Assembly: GCA_902728285.1 (NCBI GenBank)
Contig: CACVBU010000189.1
Coordinates: forward strand, 516,185 to 580,184
Direction: 5' to 3'
Length of the DNA: 64,000 nucleotides
Source: Clytia hemisphaerica
Taxonomy: Eukaryota; Cnidaria; Hydrozoa; Leptothecata; Clytiidae
Made by a program: the position numbers and the translations under genes. Positions 21,472-64,000 of the stretch are shown in pieces. Each line of letters opens with the position of its first letter. Position 1 is the stretch's first letter. The notes below the pieces were generated by a model. That model was not told where the DNA came from, made no database searches, and saw only the letters and a program-made list of their open reading frames with translations.

Positions 21472-24400
21472 ATGGTGGCGCTGAAAATAGCCAAGCCGTC
21501 GGTGGTTTTCTTCTTTTTACTTTATGCAGGTGAGTTTCAGTGAAATAAAATTTACTGATGACTTTAAACATTTTAGTTTTTACATATAAATAACAATTTG
21601 AAATCTTCTAAAGGGGACTCCAAGGTCGAAGCGTAATGGAATTTAGAGAACGTTCTTGGGCGAGAAGGGAATACATACGGGATGTGCCACCAACACCCCA
21701 ACAGGCAGTAGCAAGGGGTTAAGCACTTTATCTTAAAACACCTCGGTTGTAATAAAATGTTTCGATTTTTTTCGAGCGAGCCGTTTCGCTAGCCTTTTTC
21801 ACTTTTTCACCAACTAAAAGTTTTGTGGTCATCATATGATATCCTCGATGGTACCACCCTTATTCAATCAATATCGCGAAAATAAATCTCAGTTCTCACT
21901 ATCACTAACTAATGACACTGGATAAATATCCTCTGGCATATCCAACCACATATAAAGCTTTGGAGCGCGGGATATACACCCCCTGTAACCTTTGACGAAA
22001 AATATAGAACTTACATTCTACCTACTTTCGGTTTCGATTCCCATTTCTTAGAAAACGGCATCTGAAAAAATTCTCGGGAAATCGGGCTACTTATCGGAAA
22101 GATCGGGGAAAATATTTTGGCGGGAAACTTTTTTGGCCATGCTGCCTTCAGTGCCTTGGATATTTTTTCTTTTTTAACAGTGTTGGAAGTTGATTGCACT
22201 TTGCCAAAAGTGACAAGAGTCAAGTCAGGCAATGTTGGCAGTTTAGCTGGAGGCACCATGCTGATACTCGAAGGAGTTGGTGAGTTATTTTTTTATTGTG
22301 TTTTCTCTCAAACAAAGGACTAGGGCTATTCCAAAAAAGAATTTATACGACAGGCAGGGGTATTGACAAACTTCACAAACTTTTTTCACTAACCCCCTGA
22401 AAATTTTAGATATAAACAAACTATCCCCTGGAAGTTAGGGGTTGACACCCCTGGAAAGTGAAATTTTGCAAAAAAGGACCTGAACTATTGATGTCAGTTT
22501 ATATGAGCTGAAAAATGAACCTAGAGACAAGATAATTTATCATGTTTTTATTGGCTGAGGAACAGTTGGGTGTTTTAAAAGACATAAACTGCAATTATTG
22601 CCGAAAACGGCAATTTTTTCAACAATGAAATGCTGAATCAGCAAAATGTGTTGTCCTTATTAGGGCAAAGATGTCAGAGGTGTTTGAAAATTGTAAAATT
22701 GCATTGAGAAAAAGGTTTTTCGGATTTTTAAAAGTGATCTTTTCAATTTTTCGTTGCCCAATAACATGGAAAGTTATAAAATAATATGTAAAAAGATCCT
22801 GCCTCGATGCCGAAACACAGCCAGAAAGAGATAACAAAACCCCCGTTGTAAGTTTGTTTACATATGACTCGATTTTGCTATCTGTATTTCCAACAAAAAC
22901 CAGTTGAAAACAAAACTAAACGAGGCACAGTTTTCATCTATGGCTCAAATTTTAGGCAATTTCTCAAAGTTTTTCTTATCGCGAAGGTGTCAAATACCAT
23001 GTGTTCAATAATAAATCAACTTTTCTTTCCAAAAATGGCAAAAATTGCCGAAAACTGCAATTTTCATTTATTTACTTTTTTTATTTTTCTGCTGATTCAG
23101 CATTTCATTGTTGAAAAAATTGCCGTTTTCGGCAATAATTGCCGAAAAGAGCAATAATTGCAGTTTATATCTTAAACACCCAACTGAGGAAAAGTAATGT
23201 ATGTGGAGTAATTAGTAGAAATAGTACGAAAGAGATTCCGAATAGTGAATTCATTATCATAATCTTGATCAGAAAATTGACAACGAATTGATGTTTGATA
23301 AAATATCTATATTTCGAGCATAACTTCACTCATCTTTCAGGATTGTAAAATGTAAAATTACAAAGTTGCTACTTATGTGAAAAATTGGAAAAAAAAAAAA
23401 GGCGCTAATTGAAGGCTATTAAAATTGTAAAATGGTTAAAAGACAAGGTCGTAATAAAAAGTAGTTAAAAAAGGTATAATTCTCTAGAGGCTTTTAGGCA
23501 TTTGTTTAAAATAGGTTTCAGTCTTTTGATATGTAAAGCTTCTTTGTATAGAAGTGATGACCAATTATCACTGTAATCGCACGCTGGGTTATTTTTTCTT
23601 ATTTGGCACGCCCTCAAAGAGAGCAATTAATCGTTAATTGCATCCTGTAGAGAGCAATTAATCGTTAATCACACTCTCCAATGCCGCGCCAATGTTTACA
23701 AAATTGATTTTAATGCTTTTTCTTACATTTTTATTTTGCATCGAACGTTTTAATTGCATTCAAAATTTATTTTGTGAGAAAGAAAATCAAAAAACAACAC
23801 TAAAAGAAAGACATAAAGAGAAGAGAAAAAGATAAAACTCTCAGTGTAATTTCTCTAATTTACTTTCCTAACTGGGAAAAGTAGTGACAGTCATTGTGCG
23901 ATTAGCTCGTAATCACATAATAACTCGTACGATTCGAAAATTGCACTCGTGATTTTTTTGTTTCAAATTTTCCTCGTCCTTTTGGACTCGGCAAATTAAT
24001 AACAAAAAAATCACTTGTGCAATTATATTCGAATTGCACTCGTTATCATGTGATTACATATACGAATCAATTACTGACGTATTATCATTTACGAGATTTA
24101 TGTAGATGGAGCGAAAATTAGGCTTTTCAATACCAAGCGTCAGGAGGGTAGTTATAAACTTGAGTTCAGAGCACTCCTTCAAATGTTCGAGAACTGCACT
24201 CTCCTTCTTTGTAGCATGTTCTGAGCATCGCGTGAATAAATTCCTCTCCGTTTTGCCGACATAAGAGGCACGACAACCAGGGCAGATAAATCGATAAACA
24301 ATGTTCGACTTGAACTTCAAGGGTGTTGGGTCTTTCATGTTGGTGTAGAAGCCAATTTTGTGTGTTGAGTAGATTACTCGAAACTTGACATTAGTGTCTT

Positions 24401-27078
24401 TCTTGAGACAAAACTTTAATTTTCTTTTAATGCAGAAAAACAAGTTGTTCTCCTGTCGGGCCAGCGTAAGGGATACGTAACCAGAGTGTTGTCGGTATGG
24501 TATTATCAGCGTTGTCATTTTCAGAGTGTCGGGGACTGGTTGCGGTTTTAATGATGTTGTTGACGACAAAGCGAGGAAAACCATTCCAAGAAGCGAACTT
24601 TTTGATCAGGTTAATTTCATTTTTCAATTTAGCAGGATGACAAAGTTTGGTGGCATGGTTGGCAAGGCTAGAAATCCATGCTTTTCGGTAAGACCAAGGA
24701 GCGTAGCTATCAAAATTTGTATATAAGCCACTGTTTGTATCTTTTCTAAATATAGATAGACCATCTGGTGAAATCTCAAGATCTAAGAAGTGCGGTGTTT
24801 CATCTTCAAATTTGTCAACTGTAAATTGAAGATTTTTATCAAATTTGTTAAGGGAGCAATGAATAAAAATTGATAAAATTGATAAAATTGATTTGATTGA
24901 TATTGATAAAATTGATTTGATAAAAATCTTCAATTTACAGTTGACAAATTTGAAGATGAAACACCGCACTTCTTAGATCTTGAGATTTCACCAGATGGTC
25001 TATCTATATTTAGAAAAGATACAAACAGTGGCTTATATACAAATTTTGATAGCTACGCTCCTTGGTCTTACCGAAAAGCATGGATTTCTAGCCTTGCCAA
25101 CCGTGCCACCAAACTTTGTCATCCTGCTAAATTGAAAAATGAAATTAACCTGATCAAAAAGTTCGCTTCTTGGAATGGTTTTCCTCGCTTTGTCGTCAAC
25201 AAAATCATTAAAACCGCAACCAGTCCCCGACACTCTGAAAATGACAACGCTGATAATACCATACCGACAACACTCTGGTTACGTATCCCTTACGCTGGCC
25301 CGACAGGAGAACAACTTGTTTCTGCATTTAAAAGAAAATTAAAGTTTTGTCTCAAGAAAGACACTAATGTCAAGTTTCGAGTAATCTATTCAACACACAA
25401 AATTGGCTTCTACACCAACATGAAAGACCCAACACCCTTGAAGTTCAAGTCGAACATTGTTTATCGATTTATCTGCCCTGGTTGTCGTGCCTCTTATGTC
25501 GGCAAAACGGAGAGGAATTTATTCACGCGATGCTCAGAACATGCTACAAAGAAGGAGAGTGCAGTTCTCGAACATTTGAAGGAGTGCTCTGAAGTCAAGT
25601 TTATAACTACCCTCCTGACGCTTGGTATTGAAAAGCCTAATTTTTGCTCCATCTACATAAATCTCGTAAATGATAATACGTCAGTAATTGATTCCAGTGA
25701 TAATTGGTCATCACTTCTATACAAAGAAGCTTTACATATCAAAAGACTGAAACCTATTTTAAACAACGGCCTAAAAGCCTCTAGAGAATTATACCTTTTT
25801 TAACTACTTTTTATTACGACCTTGTCTTTTAACCATTTTACAATTTTAATAGCCTTCAATTAGCGTTTTTTTTTTTTTTTCCAATTTTTCACATAAGTAG
25901 CAACTTTGTAATTTTACATTTTACAATCCTGAAAGATGAGTGAAGTTATGCTCGAAATATAGATATTTTATCAAACATCAATTCGTTGTCAATTTTCTGA
26001 TCAAGATTATGATAATGAATTCACTATTCGGAATCTCTTTCGTACTCTTTTATTTGAAGTTATCAGCTGGTAATGGTTTTTTTAATTAGTTGAAGACTGT
26101 CGCGTTCGCCAAAACATCTATTATAATTGGAGTAACTATTTGATAATTCCAACTATATTAGTATAGAATAACTCAAGTTTTCACATTATTCCTATCAGAG
26201 TGTTTTCAATTCTTAGGATTTTCTGAAGACATGTATACTACTGGCAAAGGCAATGAAGTTTACTTTGAACATAAAATATCAAAAGAGGTTTTGACTTGCA
26301 AATTGGTTATGACAGATTCAAATGAAAAGAGGATAGCATGCGAGACACCGTAATTATTTTTTTGATCTTATGAACCAAAAGCCCACCTCTTTGAAAGTTT
26401 TTAAATTATCATGAAACACAAAAAAAAAAAAAATTCATTAAAAACAGCATTGATAAACAAATTCTGGAAAATTCTGGAAAATTAAGTGTTTTATTAATTT
26501 ATTTTCACACGTAAATTGGAAAAACAACTCATTGGAACCTATGAAGCTATGGACTTTCTCTAATTTGATCTTCAAGGGACTAAAATTTCTGTTTGAGTTA
26601 GAGAAAGATTCGAATTACAGATCGACAGAGTTTGACCTACTTTATTACATGTTATATCAAGCTTTTCTTATTTTTTTTAGGCCTGAACCATCTTCTCGGG
26701 ATGGAGATTACCATATAAAAGTCAAAGTAGATGGAGAGTCAATCTATTGCACTCAAACTTTTCATGTAAGTTGATTTTTTTTAAGTCTTGAAAATTAATA
26801 ACTAGAAAGTTGTTTTTTTAAGTTTCTGTACAGTACACTGTAGGTTTTTACATGAACAGGAGAGTTGTCATGAGGTTTTCTCTCCTAAAAGATCTCCTTT
26901 TTAGCGTCATTGAATATTTATCTACGTTTGAATAATTAAAAATTGCATTTGATTTTTGATTTTCAATTGTTTAAATATAAGTATTTTTTTGCTAAAAGTT
27001 ATTTTGTCTATTTTGTTTAGTACCGTAATAATCAAACACCATTCATCAGAAAAATCACATCGCAATCTGGTTTTCCAG
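21472..27078 (+). CDS. PKHD1L1-like exons 1-5: signal peptide, IPT 1, start of IPT 2
   Basis: Exons 21472-21529, 22181-22279, 26217-26349, 26681-26765, 27021-27078. Exon 1 encodes [19 protein letters not shown], a typical signal peptide. Exon 2 opens the first IPT with [20 protein letters not shown] and exon 3 gives [19 protein letters not shown] with the conserved ACETP end. Exon 5 starts IPT 2 ([13 protein letters not shown]). The ATG at 21472 is chosen because it gives the only signal peptide in phase with exon 2. Intron 2 (22280-26216) is swollen by a DNA transposon and an inverted pair of Penelope-like elements. Confidence 0.9.
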
Positions 27079-51000: not shown

Positions 51001-54000
51001 AAATTCCATGCTCCTGGCTTATTTCTGAAGCAACTATTTCATAATTTTGATGATGTTTAATTTCACATTTTTCATTTTACAGAATGAACAAATTGGATTT
51101 TGATAATTCACCGAACAGAGTCTCCTTTCCTTTCCAACACGCTTCTGCGCTTATGGATGAGGATGGTTCATTAACAGGTATTTTTACGGGTATTTTTATT
51201 GTCTCGATTATTCAAATAATCTTATAATGAGTTTATACTAGAAAGATTTTAAGGGGTTAATCAATTACTCATTCAATCGTCTTACAATAATTATTTCAAA
51301 CTAACTCGAATCGGCTCTTTGCCTTGATTATTCGAAAATTGCCCACCATGTTAGCTTTCATCTTTATTTCTACTCCTAGGACACACGGGCGGGAATATCT
51401 TGTCTGCCCTCATAACTTTCAATTTCTCCGCTCCCGAGGACATGTGGGTGGGAATGTCTTCCCCGATAAGTTTCCTATTTTCTACACCTAAGGACACACG
51501 GGTGGGAGATATCTTCCAACCCTCATAACTTTCATATTTTCTAATCCCAAGGTCCTAAGGAAACACAGGCGGAAGTATCTTCCAACCCTCATAATTTATC
51601 TCCTTTTATTTCCATGGACACGTGGGGGTTAGTATCTTACCCACCATGTCAACTTTCATCTTTATTTCTACCCCACACGGGCGGGAATATATTGTCCACC
51701 CTCGTAGCTTCTTTCTTTCCTATTCCTAAAAAATACGGGCGAGAATATCTTGCCCAATGAAGTATAAGCCCGAAGGGCTAGAATCAAATCTTTAACCTTT
51801 CTTAGGCGAAAAAAAGTGAACCCTTAGAACATGCGCCGTATTTTGACTACGGATTGAATCTAGCGATTCTTTTATTTTCGAGTGATATCTTTTTCGAAAT
51901 TTTGGTGTAAATTTCAGTTTCAATCTGTCATTTGTGTAAAAACCAGGCGGACCACGCTAGGCCGCGCAACTTTGGTAGGATTTGGTAGGTTTCAAATCCT
52001 ACCAAGGAGATTTGAGTCTAGCTATTCGGGCTTATACTTCATTGATCTTACCCACTCTCATAACTTTCATTTTTTCTACTCCTAAGGACACACGGGCGGA
52101 AATATCCTACCCACCATGAAAACTTTGGATCCCGCCAAATGCACCGACGACGCTGCTTCATCTTTTGGGGGTGTCAAAGGTGTGAAATGTACTGGAGGAA
52201 AATATGCGAAAGTCAACTTCAATAACGTTCATCCAAAGTCGATCAATGAGAAGGATGCTTTCTTTGAAAATTCTCATGGCAAGGATGAGGTACTCTATCG
52301 TTTTTATACCTTTCTGGTGGGAATATAATACATGGGCTTCAAAATTATATAAATGCAGTCAAAACATTTGATTACTCGAAAAAGTTCACGTTAAAGTTAC
52401 TTTGCAACTTACAGTTAATTACTTGACATTTTTTGTTTGTTTTTTTCACCTTCAAGACTTTAATTGTTTCTCAATCTCATTAACTATTCCTAAGCATAAA
52501 TTAATGAATTCTTTGCATTCTTCTCTTAAACAGGTTTTCTTCCGCATGAAAGCTAAATCGTTCCCTAACGGATGGACAGCGCTAGTTCCAATCAACGATG
52601 TGTATACATTCTCATTCAAAAACTCTACACAATTTGTCAACATTACATACGATTTACAAGCCAATGAACTAGGACCTGACGACTACTTACTGTTGAAACA
52701 TGAATTTAAGAATTTGCCAGATCACTTCAAGACAGTCAGTAATGGGCAGAAAGAAAATTTGGAGAATTTACCGGCAGTCGGTAGTAATAAACATGGCGAC
52801 TGGTTCTTTGATGAACAAGGTTTGTTTAATGTGTTTGACCTACATACATTTAACCTCATCTCCAGCGTATTATCAGCTGATTTCTCTATCAGTAATGTAA
52901 ATAAAGCCTGGGATACACGGGAACCACGTTAGTAGTTGCCATATTCCTTTACACACTAGATAGACTATATACTTGAAAAACATCTCTCATGGTACGTCCA
53001 GTTTGAGGAAGTTATTTAAAAAAAAGTTTTTGTTTCACTCCCTTGAAGCAATTTTTAATATTTTTGCACCGATCATAGGACGAGGTTTTCCAATAGTCCA
53101 ATTTTCAAGCCAATTAAAATATTCGTTTTGTTCTTTTTTGATGATCTCGAAGGCGATTCACCTGCTCATATGTTCCAACAAAATTCGAATTCCAACCTTA
53201 TTTTGTCTGAATATACTATAAAAGAATATTTAAAGATATTTAAAAATTCATATTCTCAATTTCAGGAATGTCTATGACCTATCTCGTCTCTGGCAAAGGA
53301 AGCTCACCTCTCAAACCTACACCACGAAACATCAAGATGCATACCTACCGCTGTTTCTTCGAAAAATGTGTTGTACCCACACCCCCACCACCACCAAAGG
53401 GGCGGCCAATAGATGCCAAACAGTGGAGTCAAGCCGAAAGCTGGGCGGGCGCCCCTGCAGGTTATGGTGGATCAGACGGGCGTATCCCACAAGAGAATGA
53501 TAACGTCATGATTTTGCCAACATGGTGGATGGTTTTCGATATTGAGCAGCCTGTTATTCTTGATCGCCTATACGTTTATGGTGTTCTAGACTTCGGGAAT
53601 CAAACCTACGACCAAGTCCTAAAGGCTAATACCATCCTTATCAGTGGTCTATCTGGTCAGCTTATTGTGGGCTTCCCAGATCAACCAGTTATTAGTAATG
53701 TTATTATCAGTTTGACCGGGAATCATGATTCTAAGGATATGCCCTTGACTAAGGATTTGAATCTGGGTGCAAAAGCGTTAGGCGTGTTCGGGCTATTACA
53801 AATGTACGGCAAAAAGCATGACGTCCATTGGACGAGGCTGGAGCAGAGTTTAGCAGTAGGTGGTACCCAGATCTCTGTTGAGGACGCGGTTGATTGGGAG
53901 ATTGGGGATGAGATTATCATTACGACGTCATCATTTGTACCAGAGGAAGCCGAGAAATTCACATTGACCGATATCAGTGACGATGGTATGACTTTAACAC

Positions 54001-57000
54001 TCAATCGCGGTGCAACGTACAAACACACCGCTTTCCAACAGAAAATCAATAACTATGAAGTGAAAATGAGCGCTAAAGTTGGTCTCCTGTCTAGGAATAT
54101 TCGAATCGAAGGCGCCAATCATCCGGCCCGCTCGCTTGAAGATCAGAGTTTCGGCTGCCGTGTACTTGTCGGTAAATATGCCGGTGACGAAGGTGTTCCA
54201 TACAGAGGTAAAGCTCAATTGAATGAAGTACAGTTTAGCAACTGTGGGCAGTATGGATGGACTGAAAGTTATGATCCAAGGTATGTAAAGTTTTCATAGA
54301 AAATACTGTTGTTTATGGTTGGGTGGGCGAGTCTTGAAAATTTGTTTCTTATTAAGCACTAGTAATATAAAAATTGGCTGGATGAGATTAAAGTTAGGTA
54401 TAGTTTCATTCATCGTGAGAAGTAGGGATGGACTGAAAGTTTTGATCCAATGTATGTAGAGTTTACAAAGCAAATACTGTGATTTATGGTTTGGTGGGCG
54501 AATGCCCTAGTAATAAAAAAAGTTAAAGTTGACGAGAAAAGCTTAGGTATCGTTTACATTGGAAATATGCGCTATTATTCATGGTAAGGTGGGCGAGACT
54601 TAAAGGTACTAACTATTATTATGGTTGAAATGGGCGAGTTTTTGGATTGAAATTTACGATCCAGCAGGATCCAGTATTATACATAAGACTGAGTTAAAAT
54701 ATGGAATAATTTCAGAAAAGTGCTATTCTTGAGATGTTTTATGTTGAAATTCTTAAAAAGAATCAAATTTTCAAACTGAAAAAAAACTCTTTCTATTCTT
54801 CTCCATTTAGATTTTCACTCAGTTTTCTAAACCTTGGTGACATCGCACACGGCAACGAGTCGTTCGTTGACGGATGTTCTTTTAACGACGGTTATAACGT
54901 CGCCGTCGGCGTTTACGGCACCAACAATCTGACGGTCGAAAATAACGTCATTTATCATACTGTTGGACAAGGTATTGATTTGGAGGGAACTGGTAACAAG
55001 TTGTTGAATAATTTGGTTATCAGATCTGTTGCTGAGTCGACGTATAAGGTAAAGCTTTGTTTAAAAAAGAAATTGTGAGTAAAAATCTTTTATTAGTAGA
55101 GAAGTTGTGAATTTTTATTTCGATTATAATGCTACTGTCCTATCAATCGCAAATTATCTAGAAAGTAAATTTTTTAGCTTTCTTATTTCACAATGTAGTG
55201 AAAGACATGAACAAGTACGTAAAACTATTTAAACTATTTTAGAAACTGTAACTCTATACGAACCCTTGAAACGTCAATACTCCCCCAAAATTATTTACTG
55301 TCTAGCCTAGCGAATAGCGAGTTTATGTATTCGAGATAATTCGACGGGGACGGTATAAAGCAAAGTTGACATGTCTCCAAAATCACCGTCCACTTTGCTC
55401 GACGACGGTAAAAACACCAAAATACCGTCGTCTGTTTAGGTGAGCAAAGGCGATACAGAGCCGTACATCAACTATCGACTTTGTTTTGTATCATTTCACT
55501 TACCGTCGCCCTCGATATCCTCCGATACATAAACTCGGTAATAATGTCAATCTAACGGTGAAATTCAATTTTATTCAAATTCTAGTATATTACTTCGTTA
55601 TCTCTTCGTTATAAATAATTCAATTCTAGGTTAGACTCATTGTCACTTGCTGCTAGCTACAGTCTAGTGCCACTAGCGGTTATTGTTTTCAATTATTTAT
55701 TTTATTTATTTATAAAACCAAATTTACTCTAATTTATTGCCCCTATTGTAAGTATATATGAAATATAATCCGAGAAATTCAATTTCATTGAAATCACGAG
55801 GTTATCGAATGATAGAACGTTGAATAAGAGAGTGTCAAATGTAATAATGTTTTTTTTTTACAAAACAGGTGGACAAGAAGTACCCGCACGATTTAACATG
55901 GCCAGGAGCTATCCAAACCATCAACGCTAAAGACTTAACCATGATTGGAAATGTTGTTGCCGGTAGCGAGAAATTGGGATTCTATTTTGCCGGTACCGAT
56001 TGTGATGATGAGAATGCGCACTTGAAAGTTCGAGATAACGAAGTAATACTTTGTGTTTTTAATTTTTTTAAGTCTAGAAGAGCATTTGATTACTCTCCGC
56101 AAGGTTGTTGATCTAATAATCAGCAAGTCTTTCTCTTATAGGCCTTTATGCAAGCCTGGTCGTTATTACTTGACCTCGGTTATAATTCTCACTAACCGGC
56201 CATTCTTGTATTAGTGCAGCTCTTGTGCAAATTTGCATCATAAAGTGATATAGGTCTTATATGATATTGCGATAAATGTGATGGGATAATTTGTATGATT
56301 TGTTCGTTTATCCATGATATGCACCATTGCAATGTCTTCTGACATTACATCTCGGACCCAATAGCTGATTGATTGTAGGTGACGTAAAATCAGTCAATAC
56401 GATACGTCACGTTCAACAAATCAGCTGTTGGGTCCGTGAAAGACATTGCAGTGGTGCATATCATGAACATTATATTAATGTAGTATAGTTTTTATAAACT
56501 AACATTATCTCGTCACATTTTATCGTGGTATCATATAACACCCATATTACTGTATAATGCATTTTATAAACGACTCCAGTATCAAGGGCACGCGGTAACT
56601 ATATCATAGGTATAATATAGATCTCTCTTTATTCAGGTTCATGCCACGTTACACGGTGTTCATTTCAAGAAATCTACAAAGCATTGCTGGAAAGCCGAAC
56701 ATTTTCTTATATGGAAGAACTTGGATTACGGGATCTTCACATGGCCCGATAAAAGTATCGTTGTCTCTAACACCATCTTGGCAGACAACCGAGTATCACT
56801 CGCACTACACGTTGCTCGGCCCCATGCCCTTTCTCACGATACACGTGACAATACTATCACGGTCCGAAATTCTTTAATTATCGGACAATCATCGAATTTC
56901 GATTGTGTTACGGATCAGAAAATACCATTCCATGCAAGTCAATATATGGATAGGCGGCTACCACGCCCTAATAAAGGTAATAAAAGATTTGCTCTTTAAA

Positions 57001-60000
57001 TCATTAACACTTTATTTCACGATAAGGCGAGACCTTTTTTTGCTGGCCCGACCATTCTAAAATTTGAAAAAAGAATCAAAAAAACAAAATATTAGCAATA
57101 AATGTTGGGAGTTTATATTTTTGTTTTCATTATTGTGAATTATCAACGCTGTCTTGGGCATGTGTTGCTTATTTTTCATATTGACGCAAAATTTGTTTGC
57201 TGAAATATATTATCTTTAAAAAGTTGTGGGATAAAAACTAGGAACCTAGAACGTTATTTAATTTCATTTTTAGCTGAAATGATTGGTATTAAATCTTCTA
57301 TCTTCTCTTCGACCCCTTCAACTGGCCCCAAAATGTCATGGGAAGACCCAATGTCATATCCGGCCATTAAGGGCCTGACCCGTTTCGATGGCGTTACCAT
57401 TTCGGACTTTGGACCTACTGGATGTAATAATGGCGCGCATAATTACTTCTGGATGACGTCACCAAAATATGGGGATATCTTTCATCCAATGGAAATGGAG
57501 AAAACGGTTTTGAACAATGTTGCAGAAAAAAGCAAGGTACTAACAAAGTTTCAACTGTTCTACTGTAAAAAGCTTTCATTATTCCAAAATTAGCTCCACC
57601 TTTACTTAAACCGCTTATCTCATTTCTCCGTTATAGTTTCAGACCCATGTTCCTAGCATTTTAATTCATAATATTTCATATCTAGATATTTTCGCATATC
57701 AGCTCAACACGTTATATGAAATAACGAGTCCACTAGATACTTAAGTTTTATCATATTCAAAATCTAATATTTTTATCTCTCTAATACTTTTATCTCCTTG
57801 ATACGTAAATCTTCCTAATATTTTTATCTCCCCAATATTTGTTCTATCCCCTTAAAAATTTTTATCTCCCTCATATTTAATTTCCAGATATTCCATCATC
57901 CAATGACAGCGCGTTGGATCAATCCAGCAGATTGCGTAGACATGGATTGCGACGCTCGCCGTAAAATGATTATCACTGATTTAGACGGATCATTTTTTGG
58001 GGAAGCAATGACAACATTATTATCCCGATCGGAATTCGGATGGGATGCGGCACCCGTTTGGGGTATTGGTAATTTCCGTATACCCAGGACAATGTTAACG
58101 AGACCGGACGGCTCAAGGATTGATGCGAACACTAAGTACCCTAACAAAGGTCAGTGAAAATTCCTTCTTTCTGAAGAAAGCGTTATTTTTAAAGTACAAT
58201 AAAACGGCTAAAACTTCTTGATTTCGGGAAAACATTCAAGGCCCGTTTCAGGAGTCTTTTTACTGTTTTTATTGGGCATACCGGCAAAAGTCGTTTTCTA
58301 AAGTCTGTCCAGATATAATTGGCCTGTAACTTTCGATAGTTAAATATAATTATGGAAATTCTTTTTGCTTGTTTTAGAAAATCAAAAGCGCTATATTTGA
58401 ATGTATTTTTGGTTGAAAAATTCGCGATTTTTAGCGGTTAAATTTGCGATTGCAAAAATTGAGCTTTTTTTCTACTTATGCTATAACGTTCATTTTTACA
58501 CCAGTGGTAGTTCAACCTTAGGTTAAAAAGTTTGTCAAATTTCAAGGAAAACAGAAAAGTCCTTCGGAAGATATGGGCCCCGAAATACCCCTTAGTAGCA
58601 CTTTTCTTTGAAATATCAAATCTCCAACTTATTACTAAAAACGGGGGTAGTGATATGATTGATAAAACAGTTTTTCGATCATAACACATTTTACGATCTG
58701 TTTAATGACCTCATAGCCAAATTGTGTTTAGTGTTTTAGGAATTAGCAAAGTTCTTTAGACTTAAAAATAACAAAGGCAATATAAGTTCATGCTTATCTT
58801 TTCACTAAAAACAATTATACTGTGATTTCACTTCGTTTCGAAATAATAAATGATACCAATAGCAATAATACCAATGCACCAACACTTAACATTTTCCAAC
58901 TTTTAATTGCACTGTTCAAAAAAGATAACATAACCCCCGTTTTTAGTAATAAGTTGGAGATTTGATATTTCACAGAAAAGTGCTACCAAGGGGTATTTCG
59001 GGTCCCATATCTTCTGAAGGACTTTTCTGTTTGCTTTGAAATTTGACAAACTTCTTAACCTAAGGTTGAACTACCACTGGTGTAAAAAAGAACGTTAAAG
59101 CATAAGTAGAAAAATAGCTCAATTTTTACAATCGCAAATTTAACCGCTAAAAATCACGAATTTTTCAACCAAAAATACATTCAAATACAGTACCTTTGAC
59201 TCTCTAAAACAAGCAAAAAAAATGTCTATAATTATATTTGACTATCAAAAGTTACAGGCATTCTTGTTTCCACTGCCAATTATATCTGGACAGACTTTAG
59301 TTGGCTGTATGATAGTCTACGGTTTTTGTAACTGACTGAATTTTATCTTCACCTACCCAAAATCTTGGTCTTTTTTAGTTGTAAAGTGACAATGTGTTAA
59401 AAATTTTCCTTTCTATGGTTTTACTCTTAGTCTTTATAGTGTATTTTACCTTGCCAACTCTTTGCGTTGTGTTCTCACCTACTGAAACGTAGTTTGCAGT
59501 CCAGTTCTTACTGGCTGTCAACGGGTTGAACATGTTTCATGCAGCCCTAATCCTCCCATTTAAGTCAGTCAGATAATAATTATATGAATTAAAATCTATA
59601 GGTATCATTCGCGGTACAGAACAAGGATCCAAATGCACCTTCATTGATGATTGGAACATGTATAAATGCCAACAAATGTTTTATAAAATGTTTGTTATTG
59701 AGAGCTTGGACAAAGATACAGAAACACGTCGATTGTCACCCATTGGTATCGCCAGTAATGGGTATGTTTACCTCTCTTATTCAGTCGAATATAAGAGACT
59801 CCTAACTAAAAACTTTCTCGTTTAGTTTTTTTTCAAGTAACGGGTATGTTTACCTCTTTTATCCAGCCAAATATAAGGGACTTTTAACTAAAAACTTTCT
59901 CGTTTAGTTTTTTTCAAGTAACGGGTATGTTTACCTCCCTTATCCAGTCGAAAATAAGGGACTTTTAAATGAAAATTTCTCCTGTTGTTTTTTCAAGTAA

Positions 60001-62392
60001 CATTTATGATTTTAGCCTCACTTATCCAATCAGAGATAAAAGGAATTTGAACCAAAGCTTGTCTCTTATCCAGACCAAATTAAGAAAAATGTAAATGCTG
60101 ACTTGTCACAAAAGTCATATGCATCCTCGATGATTTTTTACCGATTTATGCCAAATTTTTCTCGCTTCCCAAAAATATCGTATTTACCTTACTCACCCAA
60201 ACTAATATTAGAGACTTCTCTATCTAAAACTTTTTCAGTTACATCGATCTGATCAACGGACCACAAGATCATGGTTGGTGTCATGGTTACACATGTCAAG
60301 AACGTGTCTCGATGTTTCAAACTGTTATCTCGACTAACCAACATTACGAAGTTCATATGACGTCATACAATCCTCACAAAACACGTTTTATGATGTTGAA
60401 CGCGAACGAGGAGGAAAAGATCCGCGTGGAAATTTTTTATCCCAAATCTCAACGATTGGATGTATATAAACAAGGTGGGTAAAAATACATCCTATTCATG
60501 GTATTCATGACGTAATGTTTTCTACGGAAATACCCCGGTTTTAGCCAGTTTAGCAAATTTAAACTAGACAAAAAGTTGTATAAAATTTGCCACTACTGAC
60601 AAAAACCGAGGCCTTGACCTTGCCCAAAGTCGAAAAATAAGGTGTAAAACACAGAATCTGAAAAATGTTTAACCTAAATTAAAATTGATTTTAAATTAGC
60701 ATATTCATTCCCCAAAATCTGTGCTATTTCAGGCCTTAAAACAGGCCTTTTTTTGGCCAAAGATACCCTTTAACCGCCTTTTTATGTAATTCAAAACCAG
60801 TGTATGAAACGCTGTTTATTTTTTTATCGATTCAGGAGTCTACATCGCTCCAACAAATGCTTTCTTCGAAGATGGAAAAATGAAATTCCACTCTAAAAAT
60901 ACTGGTCAATCCTTTATACCTGAGATGCATGAGAAATTCAGTGGTGCAAATTTCTTCGATTTGGACACAAAATTGTTGTATGTTGTTATTGGGGGAAGTG
61001 AGGCTATTGATGTCCGAATGGTGCCCGTTGTTCAGGTGTGTATGGCCAAGGGTGTTCATCAAAATTTAGCGAATCCTTATATTTCTTCCAAAATTCATGA
61101 TATTCCTGACGTAATATTTTCTACGGAAAAAGCCCGGTTTTTGCCAGTAGTGGCAGATTTTATACACGATTTGTCTAGTTTAAAGTTGCCGCTACTGGCT
61201 GAAACCGGGGTATTTCCGTAGAAAACATTACGTCATGAACATCATGAATTAAAATAGATTTTTATTGAAATCAGCAAGGCTTAAATACACCCAATCGCTT
61301 TAAATACGTGCACTTTTTTTATACCATGTGGAAACAGCTCTCAAGGGAGAAAGTTTAATTTCAGTAACATGGTTGTCATATGGTAACAAAGAAGATTGAC
61401 GTAAAGTGGATTTAACATCTTTATTTGCAAAGTGAAGAAGCTTTGATTTTTTTTTGGTATAACTCTTAGAATAACAATAACTAAATCGCTTTGTTTGTTG
61501 CATATCCTCATTTGCCCAAAAAGAGTTTTGAATGATTCTAACCAATATATGACTACCAAGATTCTATAATAGTTAAGAGATAATCAGATGGCTTGAGATA
61601 CGTTTTTTATAATGTCAAACTATATAAGAACATAAGGCTTCGATGGCTAAAATGCTAAGAACAATTTAAGAACATTTTATTATTTCTTTAAAAACTAGAA
61701 TAGCTAATGTGGATATAGATGAAAAGTAAATGACAAAATATTTGTTCAATTGTTTTTCTTGTAGCTCCGTATCGGCACAACACAATCCAGCGTCAATATT
61801 GATGATTTTTTCAAAGAACAAATTGTCAACAACCTTGCAGCTCTCTTAGGAATCACCAAAGACCGTATACGTTTCGTTGACGTCGTTGCGTCGAAAGACG
61901 GATCGTTACGTAAACGACGTAACGCAGATGATATCACGTATATCGAGGTTTGTGTTTTCATCATATTACCACGTAAATTTTTGTACATAATTAGCCTGAA
62001 TAGTTCAGTATTAACCAATGTATTAGGTAGAGTCGTGATTTACGTCAATAGACCAAGTAATATAGGACATTTAGACATTATTTTGGGTCTTTTCAGTTGG
62101 TCCAAGGCCAACCGGCTTGGGTGTCTATATGAACAGAACTTATTATAGGAAGGAGCAAGCAAAGATTTCAAACATGGACACTTTTCTTTTTTTCTGCTGA
62201 CAATAAATTAGCCCTTTCGGCCATCTTCTAGTATTTGCACCCAATCATAAACAGTGCGAAAGCTAGGGCTCTTCTTGGGTTGTCAGTAATTAAAGGTTTG
62301 AAATTTTTTTCCATTGCAGCTTGAAATTAGTGAACCAGCAAAAGTCAACGGAACAGCCGAAGCAACCAATTCAACATCTGCTAATTCTACCG
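21472..62392 (+). CDS. PKHD1L1-like: Fibrocystin-L (PKHD1L1)-like giant surface protein, 50 exons, 3' end outside window
   Basis: Fifty exons chain with consistent phases, all with GT-AG introns, giving about 4,063 residues against about 4,240 for vertebrate fibrocystin-L. Domain order: signal peptide (1-20), IPT/TIG 1-3 (20-333), PA14 (about 334-520), exon-18 Cys/N-glycan insert (798-935), IPT 4-7 (1080-1455), cupredoxin-like (1478-1566), IPT 8-14 (1567-2244), G8-1 and beta-helix (2245-2852), G8-2 and beta-helix (3016-3830), then the C-terminal ectodomain. This order is diagnostic of PKHD1L1 and not of PKHD1, CEMIP or TMEM2. In vertebrates the protein is a type I membrane protein (for example the hair-cell stereocilia coat); its role here is unknown. 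The chain stops with carry-over phase 1 after ANSTG, so at least one more exon (stalk, membrane span, tail) lies beyond 64000. Confidence 0.93.
22563..23186. mobile_element. DNA transposon with ~80-bp inverted ends and AGGAA duplication, in intron 2
   Basis: Ends are CAGTTGGGTGTTTTAAAAGA and the complement of ATATCTTAAACACCCAACTG, and the match runs on through ATTGCCGAAAACGGCAATTT and AATGAAATGCTGAATCAGCA. Target duplications AGGAA lie at 22558-22562 and 23187-23191. It is 624 bp. It shares an interior segment (CTATGGCTCAAATTTTAGGC) with the 8324-8908 element. Confidence 0.8.
23223..24885 (-). mobile_element. Penelope-like element, 5'-truncated, left (minus) copy
   Basis: On the minus strand the RT thumb region reads [40 protein letters not shown] and [20 protein letters not shown]. 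It is followed by the GIY-YIG endonuclease region [20 protein letters not shown] with [12 protein letters not shown]. This is the canonical Penelope layout. The copy is frameshifted near 24430 and carries a 489-bp insertion at 23574-24062. It forms the left arm of a large palindrome with the next entry, joined head to head through their truncated 5' ends. Confidence 0.9.
23574..24062. mobile_element. Insertion inside the left Penelope-like copy
   Basis: The right copy reads continuously through AATTATCACTG/GAATCAATTACTG, while the left copy has about 489 extra bases here. Its ends resemble each other in inverted orientation (GTAATCGCAC and ATGTGATTAC), so it is probably a small DNA element that entered after the palindrome formed. 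The interior has a duplicated AGAGCAATTAATCGTTAAT. Confidence 0.65.
24905..26046 (+). mobile_element. Penelope-like element, 5'-truncated, right (plus) copy with open frame
   Basis: An open frame from about 24925 to 25803 encodes the same RT C-terminus and GIY-YIG endonuclease as the left copy, here uninterrupted, and ends [21 protein letters not shown] 240-bp 3' tail identical to the left copy follows to GTACT at 26046. The centre between the arms (about 24868-24925) is a TTGATAAAA-type microsatellite. In this family the polymerase copies RNA at exposed DNA ends or nicks; the catalytic part of the RT is missing, so neither copy is active. Confidence 0.9.
25925..25962 (+). other. Degenerate hammerhead-ribozyme-like segment in the Penelope 3' tail
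   Basis: Reads CCTGAAAGATGAG, a loop, then CTCGAAAT. A GAG/CTC stem II followed by GAAA and a nearby GATGA resembles the hammerhead core (CTGATGA..GAAA) known from Penelope-like elements, but the first box is off by at least two bases. The mirror copy lies at 23309-23342. Confidence 0.3.
27345..29324 (+). CDS. PKHD1L1-like exons 6-10: IPT 2 and IPT 3
   Basis: Exons 27345-27456, 27583-27633, 27881-27957, 28182-28295, 29112-29324. IPT 2 ([46 protein letters not shown], ending YNYQTYA) lines up with the unusually long second IPT of vertebrate fibrocystin-L, including the final QTYA. Exon 10 holds a complete IPT 3: [41 protein letters not shown]. Splitting IPT 2 over five small exons while IPT 3 sits in one exon shows uneven intron gain and loss. 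Confidence 0.88.
28317..28460. repeat. Short copy of the CCCCCAGCGG / CACGCATTCACGC repeat family
   Basis: CCCCCCCTGCCCCCAGCAG at the left and AAACCGCTGGGGGTCCC at the right enclose repeated AATTCACGCATTCACGCAA words. The same family forms the 19645-20322 element. It lies in intron 9. Confidence 0.6.
28845..28972. repeat. (ATAAGAAAAAT)n microsatellite in intron 9
   Basis: About ten imperfect units of AATATAAGAAAA in a row. Confidence 0.85.
29864..34169 (+). CDS. PKHD1L1-like exons 11-17: PA14 domain and linker
   Basis: Exons 29864-30041, 30621-30738, 31452-31706, 32144-32303, 32742-32953, 33569-33786, 34087-34169. PA14 signatures: [34 protein letters not shown], ending [19 protein letters not shown]. 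The PA14 fold is a beta-barrel often used in carbohydrate or surface binding. The following linker (exons 14-17) carries [42 protein letters not shown] and [11 protein letters not shown], all in phase. Intron 11 holds the TTAA-flanked element at 30067-30369. Confidence 0.88.
30067..30369. mobile_element. TTAA-flanked miniature element with ~120-bp arms
   Basis: TTAA at 30063-30066 and 30370-30373. Arms begin AGGGATAATCAGATGGTTTG and run inward through CTAGGATTTTAGGAAAAAC and AACTCAAGTTATGCCA. It is 303 bp, in intron 11. A fragment of the same end (GAGATAATCAGATGGCTTGA) is at 61577-61600. Confidence 0.85.
31096..31265. repeat. Inverted pair with tandem ATAAAGAACGACAAATTTC
   Basis: TCTAAAGAATCCTGCATT pairs with AATGCAGGATTCTTTAGA. 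Between them a 19-bp unit containing AAGAACGACAAATTTC occurs nearly three times (about 31125-31185). Confidence 0.6.
34514..35242 (+). CDS. PKHD1L1-like exon 18: cysteine / N-glycosylation repeat insert
   Basis: The exon is 729 nt with phase 1 at both ends, so it can be skipped without a frameshift. It starts with family-like sequence ([18 protein letters not shown]..) and ends with family-like [20 protein letters not shown]. In between, residues about 798-935 form an insert with 18 cysteines and 16 N-x-S/T sequons. Cysteine gaps alternate between 5-7 and 8-9 residues. Three central units are 17 residues long and read NCT-x-QN-xx-C-x-(N/D)Q(T/S)V, matched by a 51-bp DNA repeat. In several sequons the middle residue is cysteine (NCT), which could compete between disulfide formation and glycosylation. 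I know of no such insert in vertebrate fibrocystin-L. Confidence 0.9.
35377..35530. mobile_element. 154-bp foldback element with CAGTAGCGTAGACA ends
   Basis: Arms CAGTAGCGTAGACAAGAGGG and CCCTCCTGTCTACGCTACTG pair almost end to end. Direct repeats CAAACC flank it (35371-35376 and 35531-35536). Ends of the type CAG-x-GGCGTAG are common in hAT miniature elements, although an 8-bp duplication would be expected. It lies in intron 18. Confidence 0.75.
35739..41288 (+). CDS. PKHD1L1-like exons 19-26: linker and IPT 4-7, with RKRR site
   Basis: Exons 35739-35831, 36618-36808, 37221-37467, 37882-37972, 38336-38579, 39807-40104, 40580-40828, 41224-41288. Exon 20 ([20 protein letters not shown].. DGGMLFGPL) and exon 21 ([19 protein letters not shown]) closely match vertebrate fibrocystin-L. 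IPT starts: [14 protein letters not shown] (ex 21), [20 protein letters not shown] (ex 23), [20 protein letters not shown] (ex 24), [20 protein letters not shown] (ex 25). Exon 23 contains SRKRRNADD, a possible convertase site inside an IPT. Exon 26 is only 65 nt. Confidence 0.9.
35848..36029. mobile_element. Pogo/Tigger-type miniature element
   Basis: TA at 35846-35847 and 36030-36031. Left end CAGTTGACTCTCTCTAATTC and right end GAATTAGAGAGAGTTGATTG. The interior has the repeated TTCGAATTAGAG words of this family. Diverged relatives lie at about 26525-26645, 28530-28625, 46555-46720, 48196-48483, 48776-48965 and 50223-50370 (ACTCGAA-type ends). All are in introns of the PKHD1L1-like gene. 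Confidence 0.75.
36225..36500. repeat. Interspersed repeat, third copy of the 11951/18260 family
   Basis: GACCCACTGGAAAATTTGGC, CAAAATTTCGTCCCCTGTGG and ATTTTGATTTCATACCCACT are shared with the other two sites. It lies in intron 19. Confidence 0.6.
36880..36997. repeat. Inverted pair around a short loop in intron 20
   Basis: CCATGGCGTTCTAAATCTAC pairs with GTAGATTTAGAATGCTATGG. Confidence 0.6.
38650..38878. mobile_element. Inverted-repeat element with AAGGGGTGGACGAAC arms in intron 23
   Basis: The left arm has GGGCCGTT and ACAAGGGGTGGACGAACATT. The right arm has AGGTTCGTCCACCCCTTTAT and AACAGCCCAT. The interior carries a repeated CTAGGGGGTAAAA motif. Confidence 0.6.
40287..40485. mobile_element. 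TA-flanked miniature element in intron 24
   Basis: TA at 40285-40286 and 40486-40487. Ends are GACCTTTTCATAAATTACGC and the complement GACGTAATTCAAGTAAAGGTC (CGTGACGTAATT arm), with further pairing between CATCACTTGCC and GGCAAGTGATAT. Confidence 0.75.
40953..41160 (-). mobile_element. tRNA-derived SINE in intron 25
   Basis: Read on the minus strand from 41155: GCGATGACCGAGTGGACTAA (A box TGACCGAGTGG) then GGGGTTCGATGTTCGAACCC (B box GGTTCGAnnC). Both are internal RNA polymerase III promoter boxes of a class II (Leu/Ser-type) tRNA. About 130 bp of unrelated body follows, ending in a (TATC)n tail at about 40953-40975. A degenerate body copy without the tRNA head is at about 62036-62165 (GCCAACCGGCTTGGGTGTCT). 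Confidence 0.75.
42070..42337 (+). CDS. PKHD1L1-like exon 27: cupredoxin-like segment
   Basis: Reads GDEMK (end of exon 26) [37 protein letters not shown], then [20 protein letters not shown]. The pattern W-x-W, a C-x-H pair and F-x-x-P-G-x-Y-Y-F-x-S-G is that of the plastocyanin-like fold found at this place in fibrocystin-L. The full copper ligand set is not evident, so it is probably structural. Confidence 0.75.
42732..44765 (+). CDS. PKHD1L1-like exon 28: seven IPT domains in one 2-kb exon
   Basis: A single open exon of 2,034 nt. IPT starts: [95 protein letters not shown], a shortened [20 protein letters not shown], and [20 protein letters not shown]. It ends [15 protein letters not shown], the lead-in to the G8 domain. 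Elsewhere in this gene single IPTs are split over several exons, so this block probably lost its introns, perhaps by cDNA-mediated conversion. IPT domains are immunoglobulin-like beta-sandwiches. Confidence 0.95.
45022..51177 (+). CDS. PKHD1L1-like exons 29-37: first G8 domain and beta-helix
   Basis: Exons 45022-45312, 45868-46016, 46268-46514, 47234-47521, 47940-48183, 49037-49231, 49552-49736, 50411-50540, 51083-51177. G8 signature: [20 protein letters not shown], then [20 protein letters not shown]. Then [114 protein letters not shown] and [13 protein letters not shown]. This is the region shared with CEMIP and TMEM2 (hyaluronan-degrading proteins). Whether this protein binds or cuts glycans cannot be told from sequence. 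Confidence 0.93.
45583..45805. mobile_element. Inverted-repeat element with TAGACGGC ends in intron 29
   Basis: The left has AGTTTAGACGGCTCAATTTT and CCTATTCTAATTG. The right has CAATTAGAATAGTCGCAGGA and AAGTCGGCCGTCTTGAC. It ends only about 60 bases before exon 30. Confidence 0.6.
48222..48327. mobile_element. Nested element with AGCTGGCACACAACGTT ends
   Basis: AGCTGGCACACAACGTTATT and AACAACGTTGTGTGCCAGCT are inverted ends around tandem AACGTTCATCT words. It interrupts a pogo-like element that runs from about 48196 to 48483, so the order of insertion is clear. Confidence 0.75.
51380..52086 (+). repeat. Intron 37 tandem array of acceptor-plus-exon-38-start copies
   Basis: Units of about 57 bp start at 51380, 51438, 51493, 51560, 51617, about 51671 and about 51730. 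Each has a pyrimidine-rich tract like TTTCATCTTTATTTCTACTC, then (in units 1-4) AG, then GACACACGGGCGGGAATATC. The eighth unit is the real start of exon 38 (52087). Reading unit 1 in phase gives HTGGNIL as in exon 38, but the frame runs to a stop within the array. Units 5-7 have lost the AG. A 284-bp element (51758-52041) separates units 7 and 8. Confidence 0.85.
51758..52041. mobile_element. Inverted-repeat element inserted in the intron 37 array
   Basis: Ends TGAAGTATAAGCCCGAA and TTCGGGCTTATACTTCA, with further pairing CTAGAATCAAATC against GATTTGAGTCTAG. No clear target duplication because the surroundings are themselves repeated. Confidence 0.7.
52087..52819 (+). CDS. PKHD1L1-like exons 38-39: linker between the two G8 modules
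   Basis: Exons 52087-52289 and 52534-52819. After DEDGSLTG the best acceptor at 52085-52086 gives [18 protein letters not shown], which keeps phase and fits the turn that family members have after SLTG. The exon continues [20 protein letters not shown] and [10 protein letters not shown]; exon 39 has [20 protein letters not shown] and [12 protein letters not shown]. The first 30 bases of exon 38 are the last unit of a tandem array filling intron 37, so the exact acceptor used needs RNA evidence. Confidence 0.8.
53266..58149 (+). CDS. PKHD1L1-like exons 40-45: second G8 domain and beta-helix
   Basis: Exons 53266-54280, 54811-55048, 55869-56042, 56637-56976, 57274-57536, 57888-58149. Exon 40 starts [14 protein letters not shown], passes a proline run (TPPPPPKG) and the second G8: [50 protein letters not shown]. 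Then [33 protein letters not shown] and [11 protein letters not shown]. Beta-helix repeats: [60 protein letters not shown]. Exon 45 ([20 protein letters not shown] then DLDGSFFG and [12 protein letters not shown]) closely matches vertebrate fibrocystin-L. Confidence 0.93.
54420..54690 (+). repeat. Intron 40 copy of the exon 40 end with its donor site
   Basis: GATGGACTGAAAGTTTTGAT followed by CCAATGTATGTAGAG at about 54427 copies the exon 40 terminus at 54255 (GATGGACTGAAAGTTATGAT, CCAAGGTATGTAAAG), and the likeness continues through AAATACTG and GGTGGGCGA. More degraded copies follow to about 54690. Confidence 0.75.
55318..55542. mobile_element. Inverted-repeat element in intron 41
   Basis: Ends CGAGTTTATGTATTCGAGAT and GATACATAAACTCG. 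Inner pairing of GACGGGGACGGTA with TACCGTCGCCCTC and a central GACGGTA/TACCGTC pair. Confidence 0.7.
56225..56570. mobile_element. Two nested foldback elements in intron 42
   Basis: The outer arms GATATTGCGATAAATGTGAT and the complement of TCACATTTTATCGTGGTATC lie at about 56230-56295 and 56500-56565. The inner element at about 56314-56465 has ATGATATGCACCATTGCAAT and ATTGCAGTGGTGCATATCAT ends and an inner GGACCCAATAGCTGATT pair. Confidence 0.65.
57760..57887. repeat. TTTTTATCTCCCTAATA tandem words forming the intron 44 pyrimidine tract
   Basis: Five or six imperfect 17-21-bp units (CTAATATTTTTATCTCCCC type) run straight into the acceptor TTTCCAG of exon 45. Confidence 0.7.
58299..59299. 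mobile_element. 1-kb foldback element with ~365-bp arms in intron 45
   Basis: Ends TAAAGTCTGTCCAGATATAA and TTATATCTGGACAGACTTTA. The arms match along CACCAGTGGTAGTTCAACCT, GCGGTTAAATTTGCGATTG and AGTAATAAGTTGGAGATTTG (in opposite orientation), with about 270 bp of loop. No transposase frame. Confidence 0.85.
59602..62392 (+). CDS. PKHD1L1-like exons 46-50: C-terminal ectodomain with second RKRR site
   Basis: Exons 59602-59761, 60239-60474, 60836-61035, 61765-61947, 62320-62392. Family landmarks: [60 protein letters not shown] and [20 protein letters not shown]. Exon 49 reads [20 protein letters not shown], then [19 protein letters not shown]. Basic residues at this point are also present in vertebrate fibrocystin-L. 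Exon 50 is rich in N-glycosylation sites ([17 protein letters not shown]) and looks like a stalk close to the membrane. The chain leaves the window in phase 1. Confidence 0.92.
59757..60075 (+). repeat. Intron 46 tandem array of donor-site copies
   Basis: Three to four units of about 81 bp start at 59760, 59842, 59923 and about 60003. Each starts AACGGGTATGTTTACCTC (exon 46 ends AATGG before GTATGTTTACCTC), then has TTATCCAGTCGAAWATAAGG and ACTTTTAACTAAAAACTTTC. Units 2 and 3 keep a full GG/GTATGT donor. Confidence 0.85.
61092..61249. mobile_element. 158-bp foldback element in intron 48
   Basis: Ends ATTCATGATATTCCTGACGT and ACGTCATGAACATCATGAAT, inner arms TTTTCTACGGAAAAAGCCCG and GGGGTATTTCCGTAGAAAA. 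Single-ended relatives lie at about 60505-60610 (intron 47) and 46707-46790 (intron 31). Confidence 0.75.
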
Positions 62393-62502
62393 GTAAAACA
62401 TAATATTGACGAACTTAATTTGCGAAAATATGAGACTATACAAATGTTTTAGTATATTACCAAGAGTGCTCGATGATTGTTTATATCAATACTTGCCTAC
62501 CC

Positions 62503-64000
62503 TGATGTTCCTTTTTCATTTGACAAGGCTACAAATCGTAACGGTGAACACCTTTTAGATCTTCTACAAGAATTTGACCTTTTTTCCTCAAATAACTCCT
62601 TCATGAAATGTGCTAATCATCTCTGGACCTTCAAATATCCAAACGGCGATAAAGCACAGATCGACTATATCATTTTCCGGAAAAAATGGCGTAATAGCAT
62701 ACAGGACTCAAGAGCATATTCTTCCTTTGCTACTGTGAGTACTGATCATCGCATCGTATCTTCTAAGGTCAAACTTAGTCTTCGCTCTTCCAAACCTTCG
62801 AAACCTAATCCTTTAAAACAAATAGATTGGAAAAGAGCCTCTACAAATCCTGAAGTCTGTAGCATGTTTGGAATTGAGGTCTTTAACCGTTTCTCTACTC
62901 TTTTCAATGAAGAATTGACCAAAGATAATGTTGAGCTAGCGTATTCTTGTCTTAAAGATTCCACAGAAAAAGTTGCCCTAGAGCAACTTCCAGAAAACAA
63001 AAAACGAGCTAAATCAGACCCAAAAGAATGTCCCTTAGTCAAGAAAGCAAGAGAAAATCTAACAAAAGCTTCCTCTTTGTATAATGCAGCACCAACGCGG
63101 AGACGCAAGGAGCAACTTACCTCTGCCAAGATTAAACTTGACGAGGCCTACCTAGAGGCTCAAGTTTCTTTTATTAATACTCAGCTGAAGGACATGTCTG
63201 AGCAATTTTCCAAAAATTCTCATCGCGATGCTTGGAAAGTAGTACAAAAACTAAGTGGCAAGAACTCAAAACCGTCCATCCAGCTGCTGAAAGGTGGCTC
63301 GGATAAAAAACGCTTAGATAATTGGTTACAGCATTTTAAAAATCTTTTAGGTAAAAAACCGGTGTTAGCAACAAATAACTTTCTTCCACGAGAGCAAATT
63401 TCTCCCCCTCTAGATATATCTACTTTTTCTTTTTCCATGGAAGAGTTGACAAAGGTCCTTTCCACAACACAAATCATGCAAGGCCCTCGGTCCAGATAAC
63501 ATACCACCTATTATCTGGAAGGACAGAAATTTTCATGATATCCTTTTAAAGCTTTGCAACCTCGCGTTTGAAGACAAGTTTGTACAACACACTGGTTAAA
63601 ATCGACCATCGTTCCAGTACCAAAAAAGGGAGACCTTAGTCTTGCCACAAACTATCGTGGTATCTTCTTCTCCCAATCGCAGCAAAAATCTATAATAAGC
63701 TTCTTCTTAATAGAATACGGCTTCATGTTGAACCCATTCTTCGTAAAAATCAAAACGGTTTTCGAAGTGGTCGTTCTACTTTAAGCCAAGTTCTTGCTCT
63801 TCGACGAATCTTAGAGGAAGCTAGAAACTTCAATCTTGAAGCAATTTTGATTTTTGTTGATTTCAAGAAAGCCTTTGATTCGGTTGATCGCGACTTAATG
63901 TTTGATATTCTCTCTCTTTACGGCATCCCTCAAAAGATCATTGATGCCATAAAACTTCTGTACACTAATACAAAATCTTCAGTACAAACACCTGATGGTG
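62503..64000 (+). mobile_element. CR1/L2-type LINE, endonuclease end and reverse transcriptase, frameshifted, runs off the window
   Basis: In phase to 63499: ATNRNGEHLLDLLQEFDLFS, QIDYIIFRKKWRNSIQDSRA and VSTDHRIVSSKVKLSLR, the C-terminal part of the apurinic-type endonuclease. After a one-base shift near 63470 comes GPDNIPPIIW, then (further shifts near 63590 and 63660) STIVPVPKKGDLSLATNYRG, NGFRSGRSTLSQVLALRRIL and FVDFKKAFDSVDRDLMFDIL. This is the RT core including the first catalytic aspartate region. At least three frameshifts make it a dead copy. It sits in the intron after exon 50, in the same orientation as the gene. Confidence 0.9.

Follow-up and report, generated by a model that had tools for sequence, protein, structure and literature searches.

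A fibrocystin-L-like gene and the repeat array in its intron 37

The window, a 64,000-nucleotide stretch of Clytia hemisphaerica DNA, carries on its forward strand a large gene whose product contains, by Pfam, IPT/TIG repeats (E 3.3e-66, seven stretches within one exon frame), two G8 domains (PF10162; 45024-45311, E 9e-28, and 53478-53840, E 1.6e-24) and a CEMIP-type beta-helix (E 6.8e-26). We take the architecture of IPT/TIG repeats, two G8 domains and beta-helix to be that of fibrocystin-L (PKHD1L1), and as all three elements are present we refer to the gene as fibrocystin-L-like. Its exons were placed with a home-made, simple splice-and-codon model that yielded 42 introns and 84 junctions in the window, and whose training stretches partly included exon 38 itself. 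Two slips in this model, an exon start at 50444 that homology places nearer 50410 and an exon end at 52927 that homology places near 52819, mean that a small number of the 84 junctions are misplaced in the comparison below. In the numbering of an earlier, sequence-only reading, which we retain, exon 37 (51083-51177, + strand, placed by the gene model and paralog homology) ends in the residues SLT and the first base of a G codon (phase 1) at the donor AACAG/GTATTT, and is followed by intron 37 (51178-52086, + strand, from the gene model and paralog comparison). Exon 38 (52087-52289, + strand, from the gene model and paralogs), which is exon number 31 when the model is counted from 26681, ends at the donor GAG/GTACTC, and the second G8 domain lies 3' of it. 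Elsewhere in the window, frames at 5104-5937, 24054-25803 and 62477-63499 resemble retroelement proteins by eye; one gave a weak GIY-YIG match below the cut-off, and such others as were scanned gave no Pfam match.

Intron 37 contains, at 51339-51754 and 52045-52086, an array of degenerate head-to-tail units of approximately 57 bp, each composed of a pyrimidine-rich intron end followed by about 40 nt that resemble the start of exon 38. The proposal that seven copies precede the real exon as an eighth unit was borne out by a self-search of the window, with matches inside the array down to E 5e-17, and by a shuffle test in which the acceptor at 52087, aligned to its own intron, scored 65 while 40 shuffles averaged 19.6 (z 20.9). 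All units lie on the + strand. At 51339-51379 lie the tail of another, partial copy and the pyrimidine tract and AG of unit 1, and the exon-start homologues of the seven upstream copies open unit 1 (51380-51438, AG/GACAC), unit 2 (51439-51492, AG/GACAT), unit 3 (51493-51559, AG/GACAC), unit 4 (51560-51616, AG/GAAAC), unit 5 (51617-51671, no AG, reading ATG/GACAC), unit 6 (51672-51733, no AG) and unit 7, whose first part (51734-51754, no AG) is cut by an inserted element and whose second part (52045-52086) holds a branch-like CTCAT, a pyrimidine tract and the AAG that serves the true exon. The array thus fits a unit size of about 57 bp, but the spacing is not constant, ranging from 54 to 67 nt. 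An AG is kept in four of the seven upstream units, in each case as AG/GA, whereas the expectation that at least four units would follow it with GACAC held only at 51380 and 51493, in addition to the real site at 52087. The copied stretch does hold the first codons of the exon, as proposed, but is not limited to them, the best copy covering 40 exon and 27 intron nucleotides.

The units, real exon included, are 48-87% identical to one another in pairwise comparison, which fits with the failure of Tandem Repeats Finder at score 40 to report the array; these identities, like the column-agreement test below, took unit 2 to start at 51438, while the correct 51439 was used for stop positions. A search of the genome (417 Mb) with the unit returned seven matches, all at the array locus and therefore with no second haplotype, a result that is strong rather than absolute as the search skips very common words and scores the best candidates only. 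Scans of the array with Pfam, Rfam and tRNA models gave no match, and a PDB search gave a single match at E 0.22 that is not a relative.

The element that splits unit 7 and breaks the run of copies before unit 8 is 290 bp long (51755-52044, no strand assigned), with 37-bp inverted ends (CAATGAAG...CTTCATTG) and flanks ATCTTGCC/ATCTTACC that form an 8-bp target duplication matching at 7 of 8 bases. A genome search with the element gave 2155 candidate places, of which 40 were scored. Twenty copies were fetched for a check of the flanks and 17 listed, three with incomplete matches being omitted, and 13 of the 17 had 7 or 8 of 8 matching bases, although the 17 are not all independent because the flanks of copies L037 and L038 are shared in reverse and probably represent one insertion seen twice. 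We presume that this high-copy element is probably hAT-like and non-autonomous. The flanks of L037 (C771) and L038 (C428) are each other's reverse complement throughout and those of L032 and L033 (C879) on one side only, suggesting duplicated or alternative stretches in the assembly.

The start of exon 38 and the origin of the array

Five paralogs in the same genome (L009-L013) carry one open frame across the exon 37/38 join, in alignments of 49-54% identity. When these were re-aligned at the join to 52087, four were ungapped and the fifth had two extra residues, with HVG[GA]SILPT at this place in L009, L011 and L013, and TKGGSLVPK and SAGNTILPT in the other two, which have diverged further. 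The gene model likewise picks 52087-52289 as the exon, with consistent phases, though after training partly on exon 38. Taken together, the paralog alignments and the choice of the model support the prediction that the true exon begins with the last copy, as the sequence-only reading had it.

At the site of intron 37 the DNA of the paralogs is uninterrupted, with all five of those found coding straight through. Because the exon-derived half of the unit is common to paralogs that have no intron there, it is old coding sequence, which argues that the exon seeded the array. Of the two origins previously offered, that the exon was built from a minisatellite or gave rise to one, the second is thus preferred, and a minisatellite as the source of the exon was rejected given that the unit matches only its own locus and its codons are common to uninterrupted paralogs. 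Comparison of the rest of exon 38 with the array gave no supported relation (29 of 300 shuffles reach the score).

In lancelets, minisatellite-like tandem duplications across an intron/exon boundary are termed mirages (PMC3087553, PMC3902484), and the array in intron 37 is one by this anatomical definition. The explanation that we favour, with a probability of roughly 85%, is that the array is a mirage-type minisatellite seeded by the exon, of which the last copy is spliced. Under this model, some 57 bp across the 3' splice site of intron 37, comprising the last ~20-27 intron and ~40 exon bases, would have been duplicated, and several head-to-tail duplications through slippage or unequal exchange would have been followed by decay. 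The last copy, still joined to the remainder of the exon, would be the one spliced, while the earlier copies would have become intron, leaving the protein unchanged, and the 290-bp inverted-repeat element would have landed in the seventh copy.

A further proposal, compatible with the mirage explanation, is that intron 37 is itself a novelty of this gene, created by the tandem duplication as exon copies turned into intron; we consider this possible but the less probable case. In its favour, the intron is missing from all five paralogs found, whose coding sequence is uninterrupted in this within-genome comparison, and the branch-like CTCAT of the true acceptor sits in an exon-derived copy. The gene moreover groups with paralog L015 (support 0.947, in a tree of 787 aligned columns in which L019 is represented by 142 residues), which makes a single gain more parsimonious than two losses, provided that the root is not on the gene's own branch. 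Against it, the similarity of the 5' part of intron 37 to the unit is within that of shuffles (100 of 300 and 246 of 300 reach the score), as is that of the donor segment taken by itself (233 of 500 or more), and the end of exon 37 does not account for the unit's non-coding part (151 of 500). There is hence no support for a first copy at the donor end of intron 37, where the score lies within shuffles, and the pattern expected of the Rogers model, in which both intron ends derive from the duplicated segment, was not found, the 5' part of intron 37 being within shuffles; an old, decayed copy of the unit may nevertheless lie there. Judged by alignment gaps, the intron before 51083 is apparently common to L016 only and that after 52289 to L017 only, and such conflicting sharing of neighbouring introns with single paralogs probably reflects losses in the family. 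That there was a recent gain of intron 37 in one paralog, with the exon-like copies that fill its 3' half left over from the duplication by which the intron was made or stabilised, is accordingly a tentative suggestion. If true, it would place in a cnidarian family the outcome proposed for lancelet globins, with the five uninterrupted paralogs as a natural before-state. Among the sequences of the family, L019 (C788) is 93.6% identical to L017 (C144) over 141 aligned residues with few further exons nearby, and is perhaps a recent incomplete copy.

Upstream acceptors and duplications at other junctions

Splicing of exon 37 to the AG-bearing units 1-4 would retain a start resembling GHTGG, GHVGG or GNTGG before running into a stop after 146, 50, 137 and 32 nt, respectively, in each case before the second G8 domain. 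The prediction that upstream units give premature stops is thereby confirmed for all four AG-bearing units, with none reading beyond 146 nt. On a crude acceptor score unit 1 reached 3.8, the highest value in the intron, with 3.4 for the true site and 2.1, 1.0 and -1.1 for units 3, 2 and 4, respectively, and local strength is therefore not the explanation of acceptor choice. With the donor at 52289, the true acceptor delimits an exon of 203 nt, versus 730-910 nt for the upstream acceptors; the last acceptor may thus be chosen through exon definition, as it alone would form a short exon. We infer the use of the last acceptor, from homology, and likewise the reason for its choice and the mutational process set out above.

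A rival idea is that the upstream units act as functional decoy acceptors that tune the gene, with a share of transcripts using them and being destroyed or giving a protein that lacks the second G8 module; the sequence-only reading had called the units decoys and offered truncated products as one of two outcomes. The AG and pyrimidine tract kept in four upstream units, all of which lead to stops, and the score of unit 1, which is no lower than that of the true site, are in keeping with such a role. However, three of the seven units have no AG and the units are badly decayed. Comparison of units 1-6, excluding both unit 7 and the real exon, revealed 63% agreement in exon-derived columns versus 55% in intron-derived columns, which is not a significant difference (P 0.11) and is as expected of copies without function. 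While the first 23 exon-derived bases, at 68% agreement versus 56% for the intron part, hint at better conservation, the test of the whole exon part does not bear this out. Lancelet mirages, whose pattern is similar, are moreover reported to leave splicing undisturbed (PMC3087553, PMC3902484). A special decoy role is thus not borne out and we consider it improbable; the array is most likely a harmless repeat.

Copies that cross a junction are not confined to exon 38. Each of 284 junctions, 84 in the window gene and 200 in the paralog loci (150 kb around five paralogs; the paralog model omitted exons shorter than 61 nt and introns outside 120-4000 nt), was compared with its own introns, and a boundary copy was called at a score of at least 34 with at least 3 nt across the junction. 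This revealed boundary copies at five of the 284 junctions, three acceptors and two donors, namely, in the window gene, the acceptor at 52087 and the donors at 54280 and 59761 and, in the paralog loci, two acceptors, so that several junctions at either boundary are affected within this gene and the five paralog loci. In the paralog loci four of the 200 junctions were high-scoring, of which two truly cross the boundary; the donor at 16301 of C34 was dropped because the model had taken a coding-like repeat there for an exon, and the acceptor at 1640 of C90 was dropped as its minisatellite ends before the AG. The repeat in question at the C34 locus (joined position 15669-16301) is long, reads ELRCRTTD and lies near the gene. 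Junctions did not stand out as preferred targets of duplication in the gene, three of six repeat clusters crossing one versus a random mean of 2.2 (P 0.37). Weaker boundary-copy signals were seen at the acceptors 60239 and 57888.

Several of these junctions adjoin local repeats. A tandem array of 82 bp (59754-60056, 3.1 copies by Tandem Repeats Finder), starting on the last codons of an exon, copies the donor AATGG/GTATGT at 59761, and the intron end before 60239 resembles part of the 82-bp unit, such that this intron looks partly composed of mini-intron-like units. At 54244-54501, 37 exon and about 50 intron nucleotides around the donor 54280 are copied 171 bp downstream. A 17-bp array of 6.5 copies (57764-57878, CTAATATTTTTATCTCC), which resembles a branch site and pyrimidine tract, lies immediately ahead of the acceptor at 57888, and the matching exon of paralog C34 has a 63-bp array at an acceptor. 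Within 60494-61210, two stretches that resemble each other, 599 bp apart, each lie shortly 3' of a donor (60474 and 61035).

The array could alternatively be an artefact of assembly, with reads collapsed or mis-joined, as tandem repeats are prone to misassembly. The units differ from one another by 13-52%, however, and are therefore not repeated copies of one read, and boundary copies occur at four other junctions too, so that an artefact is very improbable. Least probable of all is that a dispersed repeat landed at the edge of the exon and supplied its first codons: the unit is indeed repetitive, and the array does contain a mobile element, but the genome search with the unit found no match elsewhere and the codons are common to uninterrupted paralogs.

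The host and comparison with known systems

The mitochondrial contig of the assembly (14,551 bp) has AGA and AGG at conserved arginines in cox1 and cob, and TGA at tryptophan. Arginine for AGA and AGG together with tryptophan for TGA is a code found in cnidarians and certain other non-bilaterians, which rules out the lancelet host that the literature had at first suggested. The gene order, with frames named by eye, is cox2, tRNA(tca), atp6, cox3, nad2, nad5, nad6, nad3, nad4L, nad1, nad4, cob and, at the end of the contig, a partial cox1, and the tRNA with anticodon tca, called selenocysteine by ARAGORN, was read as tryptophan. In the hydrozoan Eutima japonica, the mitochondrial genome is reported to be linear and to carry a partial copy of cox1, with tRNA-Trp lying between cox2 and atp8, in a gene order common to other hydrozoans (PMC7995878). 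Code, gene order and terminal partial cox1 thus indicate a hydrozoan host. A COX1 search in the Clytia assembly gave a single match, at the contig end, over 304 of 436 positions, and the second, full cox1 expected of a hydrozoan was not found in it, perhaps due to an incomplete mitochondrial contig.

The original description of the Adh mirage is reportedly that of Canestro et al. (2002). In later papers, mirages in lancelets (Branchiostoma) are described for Adh3, the globins BflGb6 and BflGb9, troponin C and PGBD5 (PMC3087553, PMC3902484), with PGBD5, Adh and troponin C given as further cases in the second of these (PMC3902484). Splice signals are kept there in many copies, RT-PCR suggested normal splicing and unit number differed between haplotypes (PMC3087553). 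The likeness to intron 37 is close: the BflGb6 mirage also joins a 3' intron end to a 5' exon part; splice signals persist in many but not all copies, here as an AG in four of seven; and either boundary can be hit, as in the window gene and its paralogs with their three acceptors and two donors. The units of intron 37 are more decayed, being 48-87% alike versus 81-100% in BflGb6, and a mobile element interrupts one copy, unlike in the lancelet mirages described. Whereas splicing in lancelets was assayed by RT-PCR, the intron 37 array is described here from the genome, and the host is a hydrozoan rather than a cephalochordate as in the cited cases, a difference that leaves the anatomy unaffected. 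Among the matches listed in a search of the open-licence literature, no mirage by that name was found outside lancelets.

Other repeats at exon-intron boundaries are more distant relatives. A minisatellite in human IFI6 (6-16), from a paper cited in PMC2572611, reportedly also offers several splice sites, but these are donors rather than acceptors and, to judge by the title of that paper, the transcript makes use of the copies. At the exon-intron boundaries of human genes that duplicated recently, minisatellite expansion is described as altering gene structure and as able to form introns (PMC2812944); these repeats are paralog-variable and transcript-supported with units averaging 30 bp, unlike the array in intron 37. 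Tandem duplication carrying splice signals is also described as creating introns in potato RdRp (PMC4974935) and, through repeat expansion, in Cryptococcus (PMC2395259), whereas in intron 37 the 5' part is not recognisably a copy.

With boundary copies at five of 284 junctions in one hydrozoan gene family, our results suggest that duplication at exon edges is a wider route by which introns lengthen, and perhaps one by which they arise. The array itself offers a set of natural constructs for asking how the spliceosome skips a series of similar acceptors that lie upstream of the correct one. Set beside the lancelet mirages, it is ordinary in mechanism and apparently new in its lineage.
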